A stretch of DNA of 64,000 nt from Streptomyces dangxiongensis. GTDB taxonomy: Bacteria > Actinomycetota > Actinomycetes > Streptomycetales > Streptomycetaceae. Made by a program: the position numbers and the translations under genes. The notes under the pieces are model-generated. The model was not told the origin of the DNA. It was given only the letters and a program-made list of their open reading frames with translations, and ran no database searches. The stretch spans positions 4,402,001-4,466,000 of the forward strand of contig NZ_CP033073.1 in assembly GCF_003675325.1 (NCBI RefSeq), read 5' to 3'. Below are positions 32,841 to 34,063 of the stretch, piece after piece. How positions within the stretch are numbered: position 1 is the stretch's first letter; each line of letters starts with the position of its first letter.

Positions 32841-33016
32841 CTGGCGGCTCCTCGTGATGTACGGCCGGCGGTCACCCCGGTGATGCCCCGATCGGCCGGT
32901 GGTCACCCGTGGTGAACCCAACCGCAAGGGGATCAGCACGATAACCCCCGGTGCCGGACTTGGGGAGACCACACGACACCCGGTGCCATACCCGTTCGAT
33001 ACGGCAAGATGACCGC

Positions 33017-33703
33017 GTGACCGACCGCGACCCGTTCCTGGACCCCGTCCTCGATCCCGCCGCCATGCGCAAGCAGTACCGGGCCGACGGCCTCGCCGAG
33101 GAGGACCTCGCCACCCACCCCATGGACCAGTTCGCCCGCTGGTTCGAGGACGCCGCCCGGGCGGCCGCCCACGGCACGCTCTACGAGGCCAACGCGATGG
33201 TCGTCTCCACCGTCGACCCGACGGGCCGGCCCAGCTCCCGCACGGTCCTGATGAAGCAGTACGACACCGACGGCTTCGTCTTCTACACCAACTACGACTC
33301 GCCCAAGGCCCGCGACCTCGCGCACAACCCGCGCGTCGGTCTGCTCTTCCCCTGGCATCCGCTGGCCCGCCAGGTCATCGTCACCGGCACCGCCCGCCGC
33401 ACCGGCCGCGACGAGACCGCCGCCTACTTCCGCACCCGCCCGCACGGCTCCAAGCTGGGCGCCTGGGCCAGCGCCCAGTCCACGGTGATCGCCTCCCGCA
33501 CCGACCTGGACACCGCCTACGCCGCGCTCGAGGCCCGCTACCCCGCCGACGAACAGGTCCCGGTCCCGCCCCACTGGGGCGGCTTCCGCGTCGCGCCGGA
33601 GACCGTCGAGTTCTGGCAGGGCCGCGAGAACCGGCTGCACGACCGCCTGCGCTACGCCGCCCGGCCCGACGGCACCTGGCGCGTGGAACGCCTCAGCCCC
33701 TGA
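33017..33703 (+). CDS. pdxH: Pyridoxamine 5'-phosphate oxidase
   Basis: 228-residue FMN enzyme that oxidises pyridoxamine/pyridoxine phosphate to PLP. It has the N-terminal helix [30 protein letters not shown], the FMN-binding strands [29 protein letters not shown], and the C-terminal dimerisation motif [24 protein letters not shown]. It is full length. GTG 33017 is the only suitable start. PLP made here serves enzymes such as SerC in this same window. A convergent structured element follows the stop. Confidence 0.94.
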
Positions 33704-33727
33704 CCGGGAGGGACCGGGGAACGCAGA

Positions 33728-33789
33728 CGACCCGCGGGCTGGGTTCCTCGAAGAGGAGCCGGCCGGACGTACCGGCAGCCCGCGGGTCG
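33728..33789. terminator. Three-arm RNA structure between pdxH and the small ORF
   Basis: CGACCCGCGGGCTG (33728-33741) pairs perfectly with CAGCCCGCGGGTCG (33776-33789). Inside lie a second stem, GGTTCCTC-GAA-GAGGAGCC (33742-33760, complete with one G-U pair on the plus strand), and a third, CCGG-ACGTA-CCGG (33763-33775). It looks like a three-way junction and probably terminates transcription in both directions. Confidence 0.65.
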
Positions 33790-33864
33790 GGTGACTGCGT
33801 TGGATTGGCCGGCCGCGTGGTGCACACGCCGGTCCGGCACCGCACTGGGTGTGGTGGCGGGCCG

Positions 33865-33903
33865 CTAGCCCGCAGCCACCTCGCGCGTCCGGGTTTCACT
33901 CAT
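33865..33903 (-). CDS. 12-residue ORF with a perfect Shine-Dalgarno
   Basis: ATG 33903 opens MSETRTREVAAG and a TAG stop. The last codons form one arm of a hairpin whose loop contains the stop codon. The peptide is hydrophilic and has no recognised family. An alternative GTG at 33899 opens a 68-codon frame (to 33693) that contains cysteines and overlaps the pdxH end. It is poorly spaced from the Shine-Dalgarno, so I prefer the short ORF. The peptide may itself matter, or translation may only control RNA folding. Confidence 0.45.
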   Translation of the reverse strand: MSETRTREVAAG

Positions 33904-33909
33904 GTACCC

Positions 33910-33923
33910 GATCACCTCCTTTC
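33910..33923 (-). promoter_or_regulatory. Full-length Shine-Dalgarno (GAAAGGAGGTGATC)
   Basis: Fourteen bases on the minus strand are an exact complement of the 3' end of 16S rRNA, far beyond the usual 4-6. The start codon follows with 11 bases between GGAGG and ATG. Confidence 0.8.
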
Positions 33924-33935
33924 GTACGTGCCCCC

Positions 33936-33964
33936 AGCGTAGAAAGGCGGCCCGGTGGACTCAA
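33936..33964 (-). promoter_or_regulatory. Near-consensus vegetative promoter for the small ORF
   Basis: On the minus strand TTGAGT (33964-33959), a 17-bp spacer and TACGCT (33941-33936) match the principal sigma (HrdB) consensus. Transcription should begin near 33929, leaving a leader of about 26 bases. Confidence 0.65.
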
Positions 33965-34063
33965 CCGTTTTTTCCGGCGGCCCGCGCACCGGGCCCGCCG
34001 GAACTCTCCCGGGCCGGGGGTTTCCCCTGACAGGCGGGCGACGCGGATGGTAGACGTGCTGGC

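Follow-up and report, generated by a model that had tools for sequence, protein, structure and literature searches.

The closest described counterpart of the element analysed here, which lies on the minus strand of a 64,000-nucleotide stretch of the Streptomyces dangxiongensis genome (the window), is the Rfam family RF02471, Ms_IGR-5, described there as "Actinobacteria sRNA". The entry leaves the role of the RNA unexplained, and it marks neither an open reading frame (ORF) nor a pseudoknot. In the available text of the published surveys, the S. lividans homologue SLIV_16488 is reported as transcribed (PMC8079986), the S. avermitilis homologue is one of two with an Rfam match among 139 sRNA units (PMC8780764), and significant ribosome reads are reported for the MS_IGR-5 homologues of M. 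abscessus and M. smegmatis (PMC4974804). Coding by sRNAs, those of S. coelicolor included, is itself the subject of a survey (PMC5521070), and 31 of 230 potential S. coelicolor sRNAs are reported to be ribosome-occupied (PMC4895711). The literature searched, mostly outside the subscription journals and without supplements, contains no description of the ORF, the pseudoknot or non-actinobacterial members.

Some better known RNAs invite comparison. Like tmRNA, Ms_IGR-5 appears to be a stand-alone, ribosome-read RNA with a short ORF, pseudoknotted structure and a stop codon in a structured part, but unlike tmRNA it has a canonical Shine-Dalgarno sequence (SD) and a start codon of its own; neither ARAGORN nor Rfam finds a tmRNA or a tRNA-like domain in the window, and a tmRNA was rejected as a candidate on that ground. 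Dual-function sRNAs of the SgrS/SgrT kind likewise carry a short ORF, whereas in Ms_IGR-5 the peptide appears poorly conserved and the ORF overlaps the structural core. The 6S RNA regulates globally by binding a core machine, as Ms_IGR-5 would too, except that its proposed partner is the ribosome, via the 3′ end of 16S rRNA. Finally, in leader-peptide attenuators a ribosome on a short ORF chooses between competing pairings, as we propose here, but Ms_IGR-5 lacks a conserved downstream gene.

The Rfam search matches minus-strand positions 33722–33929 of the window to RF02471 with 82.1 bits against a gathering cut-off of 45 and over the full model (positions 1–184 of 184), which places the locus in the family; our own covariance model, R1, scores 83.2 bits at 33786–33929 on the same strand. 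The original prediction was of a small RNA of which no description was known. The first part holds, since this is a known family with homologues reported as transcribed in the available text of two studies (PMC8079986, PMC8780764), and the second does not: the element is already catalogued, and the notion of an undescribed element was rejected. What the comparison adds to the Rfam entry is a conserved ORF, members in other phyla, and a predicted pseudoknot absent from the structure line.

We take the RNA to span 33722–33929, its 5′ end following from the promoter and its 3′ end from the family model. The predicted promoter, TTGAGT-17-TACGCT, is present on the minus strand with a −35 element TTGAGT at 33964–33959, a 17-nt spacer and a −10 element TACGCT at 33941–33936, and it was not called by a generic sigma-70 scan of the window. 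The first base of the family match is 33929. Across 167 actinobacterial loci, 132 have a [TC]ANNNT box beginning 13 or 12 nt upstream of the base where the model match begins, and at each of seven other offsets 1–11 of the 167 have one; this first base is A in 165. The recurrence of a −10-like box at this distance indicates that the RNA probably starts at the helix that we call P1.

The RNA is present in 20 of 21 near-relative genomes drawn, S. dangxiongensis itself included. Over the actinobacterial phylum, RF02471 has a match in 88 of 396 genomes drawn (50 above its cut-off and 38 below), and R1, built from 61 sequences, has one in 158 of the 396 at the same E-value limit; RF02471 scores most of the deep loci below its cut-off and matched none of 14 control genomes. 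Among the matches listed there is one copy per genome, bar one genome with 7% contamination that shows two. The distribution is patchy, with none of eight genomes matched in a family of the same class (label f10). In a mycobacteria-like genus (label g7), 2 of 14 genomes have no match. Both gaps are possibly losses.

A pattern scan of named species genomes matched at least 120 stretches. The 80 matches listed include Streptomyces, Mycobacterium, Nocardioides, Actinomadura, Cellulomonas, Micromonospora, Amycolatopsis, Rhodococcus, Acidimicrobiia and Solirubrobacterales, together with three records titled Acidobacteria, Acidobacteriota and Spirochaetia, and R1 matched all 36 of the stretches tried out of these 80. 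R1 also matches 18 of 149 genomes of the "Acidobacteria"-titled phylum and 6 of 149 of the "Spirochaetia"-titled phylum, both phylum names resting on the titles of MAG records; with R2, in which 16 of 98 rows come from these two phyla, the numbers are 22 of 149 and 7 of 149, a rise that is not independent. RF02471 itself matches 11 of 16 loci of the other phyla at E ≤0.05, two of them (L332 and L334, both of one phylum) above the cut-off. By the matches of R1 and R2 and an rpoB tree, membership extends past the Actinobacteria named in its description, which is no scoring criterion. In this tree, four sampled members of one phylum and three of the other lie outside the actinobacterial clade (100/99), whose members include the probably mislabelled "Acidobacteriota" record of locus L247 (genome G418). 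The tree also contains G152 and G099, two genomes drawn in the phylum searches that the models did not match; for G585 no rpoB was found.

Between P1 and P2 lies GAAAGGAGGTGATC (33923–33910, minus strand), which is, as predicted, an exact 14-nt complement of the 16S rRNA 3′ end. The exact 14-mer occurs eight times in the 8.16 Mb genome, against none for the reversed pattern; six copies were assigned by eye to the antisense strand of 16S 3′ ends, one is this site, and the sole other non-rRNA copy is at L318. Scored against the 16S tail of the S. dangxiongensis genome, all 167 loci have a complementarity of 12–23 nt with a mode of 17, G-U pairs allowed. Ribosome binding, which had been suggested along with the site, is supported by this conservation and by the mycobacterial ribosome reads reported in the available text of PMC4974804. 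A second anti-SD complement (SD2), GAGGTG, is located at 33877–33882 on the minus strand, 9 nt before a stop codon. This sequence is GAGGTG in 165 of the 167 loci and GAGGTA in two, and it is GAGGTG in 29 of 29 loci of the two other phyla, with the stop 15 nt later (L333 and L335 carry two GAGGTG each, one of which was chosen by hand for this count).

The stop belongs to the predicted 12-codon ORF MSETRTREVAAG, ATG to TAG, at 33903–33865 (minus strand), and it does lie within a hairpin of the minimum-energy fold. Comparison of this ORF across loci reveals several features. First, the frame is kept. In 166 of the 167 actinobacterial loci a start lies 4–14 nt from the SD and no stop interrupts the frame before the one whose place is fixed, and in the remaining one (L065) ACG alone is a possible start; the arrangement GAGGT[GA]-9 nt-stop is present in 156 of 167. 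In the first set (n = 107), 103 loci have their stop exactly 15 nt downstream of the first base of GAGGTG and one has it a codon later (+18), and three (L086, L091 and L098) are open in another frame that ends at the same GCTAG stop. Reading from 4 nt past GGAGGT, 103 of the 107 are open in the frame that runs through GAGGTG (the other frames in 55 and 16), an AUG, GUG or UUG start is found at 5–14 nt in 83, and four have an in-frame stop near the SD: it precedes the start codon in L035, L041 and L042, and L086 uses the other frame. The distance from SD to GAGGTG in this set ranges over 23–39 nt and all three phases with the frame retained. The second set consists of 60 loci found by R1 alone, a model that holds no information on reading frames, and the ORF is present in all 60, in the first frame in 53 and in a shifted frame in seven.

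Second, the start codons over the 167 loci are TTG (69), ATG (54), GTG (15) and near-cognates (28), with none accepted in one. In the 28, only AUU, AUC, AUA or CUG is available behind a strong SD, and initiation may be weak at these loci and, with its ACG, at L065. The 28 near-cognate starts would suggest a tuned, low-yield initiation. A near-cognate start after a strong SD is known for infC, and sensitivity to IF3 may be what it means here. Third, the stop codons are interchangeable (TAG 133, TGA 25 and TAA 9); genomes of this kind usually employ UAG less often than other stops. Fourth, the ORF is short, 10 to 17 codons over the 167 loci and 11–22 codons in the two other phyla. Finally, the peptide is not kept in the way that the frame is. 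Ten of the 167 loci have a shifted frame, and there the ORF survives with a different peptide end, GGGSS or others, where most loci end like EVAAG; the N-terminal half varies freely, as judged by eye, and an x-E-V ending is widespread, recurring in loci of three phyla. We conclude that translation appears to have been selected more than the peptide, and this suggests that being translated, and not the peptide made, is the job of the RNA. Conservation of an ORF without conservation of its peptide is readable from sequence alone.

The minimum-energy fold of the window's RNA beats 200 shuffles with z −4.4, and comparison of the family predicts the following helices, all on the minus strand. P1 joins 33928–33926 to 33884–33882, and P2 joins 33911–33907 to 33893–33889 with the start codon in its loop, both proposed from covariation (107 rows, 98 of them distinct, for P1). 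P3 pairs 33880–33872, GGTGGCTGC, with 33798–33790, GCAGTCACC; P4 pairs 33870–33864, GGCTAGC, which contains the stop, with 33813–33807, GCCGGCC, and is followed by a conserved bulge, AATCC. P6 is the 3′ hairpin (33789–33728), whose 14-bp stem of 33789–33776 with 33741–33728 bears out the 14-bp closing stem of the original prediction. The 5′ pairing of GGUGGU with GCUGCC in the RF02471 structure line is not P1, P2 or P3. The window departs from the family fold in that P1 has only three pairs, one of them G-U, and P4 has a mismatch; in its own minimum-energy fold a local hairpin at the stop replaces P3 and P4, and the 3′ tail is predicted to pair with the SD.

Conservation and covariation in relatives, by which the predicted element could be checked, are both found, related sequences inflating the shuffle tests that follow. 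In a plain MAFFT alignment, 91.2% of P1 and P2 cells are paired versus 76.8% with shuffling and at most 44.8% in slid alignments, and cells changed on both sides number 102 versus 29, with none of 500 shuffles as high; two of the five measures do no better than shuffles (pairs with changes on both sides, 4 vs 4.7, and further pair types, 16 vs 15.7). P2 covaries little, with three of its four pairs varying on one side only. When P3 and P4 are included (61 rows), 87.3% of cells are paired versus 75.7%, changed cells are 156 versus 52, and slides reach at most 40.2%. For P3 the partner was chosen by complementarity, which biases its count toward pairing; the guards against this are a shuffled-partner test, with 8.65 versus 8.18 (maximum 8.30 of 200), and the slid alignment count. 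The middle base of the stop is in a standard P4 pair in only 35 of 61 rows.

The pseudoknot is predicted between 33892–33886, CCGGACG, in codons 4–6, and 33769–33763, CGTCCGG, in the loop of the 3′ hairpin (minus strand), also from covariation; it and P2 would be mutually exclusive, because both use the same bases. The mean complement is 5.56 nt versus 4.48 in shuffles (maximum 4.68 of 300) and 3.3–3.9 in slid windows, and 91 of the 167 loci reach 6 nt or more versus a shuffled mean of 22.8 and at most 36; since each locus contributes its best match within 47 nt, the shuffles and slid windows serve as guards. Base by base, 126 of the 167 loci are readable and 41 are not, and in 83 of the readable ones the nucleotide that follows GGA[CT] is complementary to its partner in the loop (C-G 33, G-C 34, T-A 9 and A-T 7), versus 37 expected from the table margins; this match is not explained by the SD extension, which is near constant there. 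By eye, the P6 loop is absent in families f25, f50, f55 and f67, two f46 loci and many members of the "Acidobacteria"-titled phylum, where a terminator-like hairpin stands in place of P6, and the pseudoknot is therefore not universal. Outside Actinomycetota its placement is wrong for several loci, and we claim little there.

The reading that we prefer, with a probability of about 0.5, is that Ms_IGR-5 is a translated regulatory RNA that stands alone and is switched by the ribosome. The conserved facts are that the RNA offers what should be a very strong ribosome site and a minimal ORF that could not be read without undoing the core fold: the comparison places P1 and P2 at the flanks of the 16S-complementary site and the start codon in the P2 loop, has codons 4–6 pair with either the SD extension (P2) or the 3′ hairpin loop (pseudoknot) and the last codons and stop with downstream strands (P3 and P4), and finds the frame open from near the SD to the stop in the loci examined. 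With the RNA starting at P1, the pseudoknot, P1, P3 and P4 would, as long as no ribosome is bound, keep the RNA compactly folded with its SD accessible. To this long SD a 30S subunit would then pair and initiate the short ORF, and the ribosome would strip P1–P4 and the pseudoknot and end at the stop. There the GAGGUG 9 nt upstream could pair with the anti-SD and delay departure, the fixed 9 nt putting the anti-SD of the terminating ribosome at normal SD spacing, and the 3′ strands (GAAUCC..CAGUCACC) and 3′ loop would be set free. The RNA would in this way report on free ribosomes or on initiation, with occupancy setting its action or life-time. Candidate outputs are trans pairing, the holding of 30S and RNA stability, and we lean to an occupancy-gated exposure of the 3′ half. 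In favor of this reading are the retained frame, the covariation of the helices and the pseudoknot, the lineage-dependent neighbors and the mycobacterial ribosome reads reported in PMC4974804. Against it count the possibly weak initiation at the near-cognate and ACG loci, the short P1, mismatched P4 and local stop hairpin of the window, the scant covariation of P2, the poor pairing of the middle stop base, the loci that lack a P6 loop, the widespread x-E-V ending and the possible read-through from gyrA in 18 loci.

If the ribosome is the ligand, this RNA would be a global translation sensor. More tentatively, and we think it somewhat less probable than otherwise, it could represent a hitherto unrecognised, ancient ribosome-sensing RNA class in at least three phyla that docks on the 16S 3′ end, makes an irrelevant peptide, parks the ribosome via GAGGUG and signals occupancy by the breaking of the pseudoknot, as a translation counterpart of 6S RNA.

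The same observations bear on other readings. The original prediction also raised the possibility of a micropeptide, in which case this would be a structured mRNA with a peptide of 10–22 residues as its product. The strong SD, the conserved ORF and the reads reported in the available text of PMC4974804 are all compatible with such a gene, and the x-E-V ending shared by three phyla makes some peptide role possible; however, the conserved codons double as SD2, P1 and P3, GAGGTG being constant as nucleotides (165/167), and both the freely varying N-terminal half and the altered endings of the ten shifted loci argue against it. The ORF thus stands as a conserved feature, and the peptide product is the weaker reading, which we consider unlikely. 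We are equally doubtful that the RNA is a sink that titrates free 30S subunits or ribosomes through a 16S duplex of 14–23 nt, somewhat as 6S RNA does RNA polymerase, with translation hardly mattering. The 16S complementarity of 12–23 nt across the 167 loci, the single other non-rRNA copy of the 14-mer in the genome and the near-cognate starts of 28 loci would suit a sink, but an open frame with a fixed stop in 167/167 and 29/29 loci is unexpected if initiation is irrelevant. If the RNA were an ordinary non-coding sRNA and structural constraint had left it an ORF incidentally, this would agree with the Rfam listing and with the extent to which P1 and P3 cover the ORF; that the start codon, placed in a variable loop, follows the frame when this shifts, that stop codons interchange and that the second set retains the ORF in 60/60 make this very improbable.

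That the RNA is a cis-acting leader or attenuator of the next gene is favored by the leader-like ORF, by a stop codon placed within a helix and by pairings that compete, and in family f25 a tRNA-Glu (UUC) gene is present 46–111 nt downstream on the same strand in six of seven loci fetched out of 10 matched genomes (L091, L098, L191, L192, L194 and L195). In the window, however, there is, as predicted, no gene for the RNA to lead into: the next gene, for pyridoxamine-phosphate oxidase, has a convergent orientation, with its end at 33703, and the next minus-strand gene, for citrate synthase, begins only at 32972 (Pfam names these two and a GNAT gene as neighbors). Neighboring genes differ between lineages, and in two lineages the conserved downstream gene is on the opposite strand, an HNH gene in 16/16 loci of one and an NAD-dependent ligase gene in 10/11 of the other. 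Moreover, terminator-like hairpins follow the RNA in 31 of 167 loci (14 on the reverse strand), and by eye hairpins followed by T-tracts do so in several loci outside the Actinobacteria. With no conserved same-strand downstream gene and convergent neighbors in several lineages, the cis leader was rejected and seems to us a far-fetched reading; by its gene surroundings the RNA is a stand-alone element, as the ribosome-gated reading would have it.

On the upstream side, gyrase A (gyrA) lies on the same strand in 18 loci, those of the lineage with the HNH gene among them, and read-through is possible there; a class IV aminotransferase gene lies upstream in 13 loci, 12 of which are L021–L032. One protein of each such neighbor cluster was identified, and a ygfZ-like-looking gene at L152 has no Pfam match at 1e-5. 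From gene order, the S. coelicolor copy may be scr4389. A distant blastn search with 33700–33960 found no match in plasmid and phage collections and one exact pattern had no matches in viral contigs, and at blastn sensitivity nothing was found for a mobile or viral origin. In some deep lineages, genes for tRNA-Sec (L099, L103 and L107) or tmRNA (L077) are located within 3 kb of the RNA.
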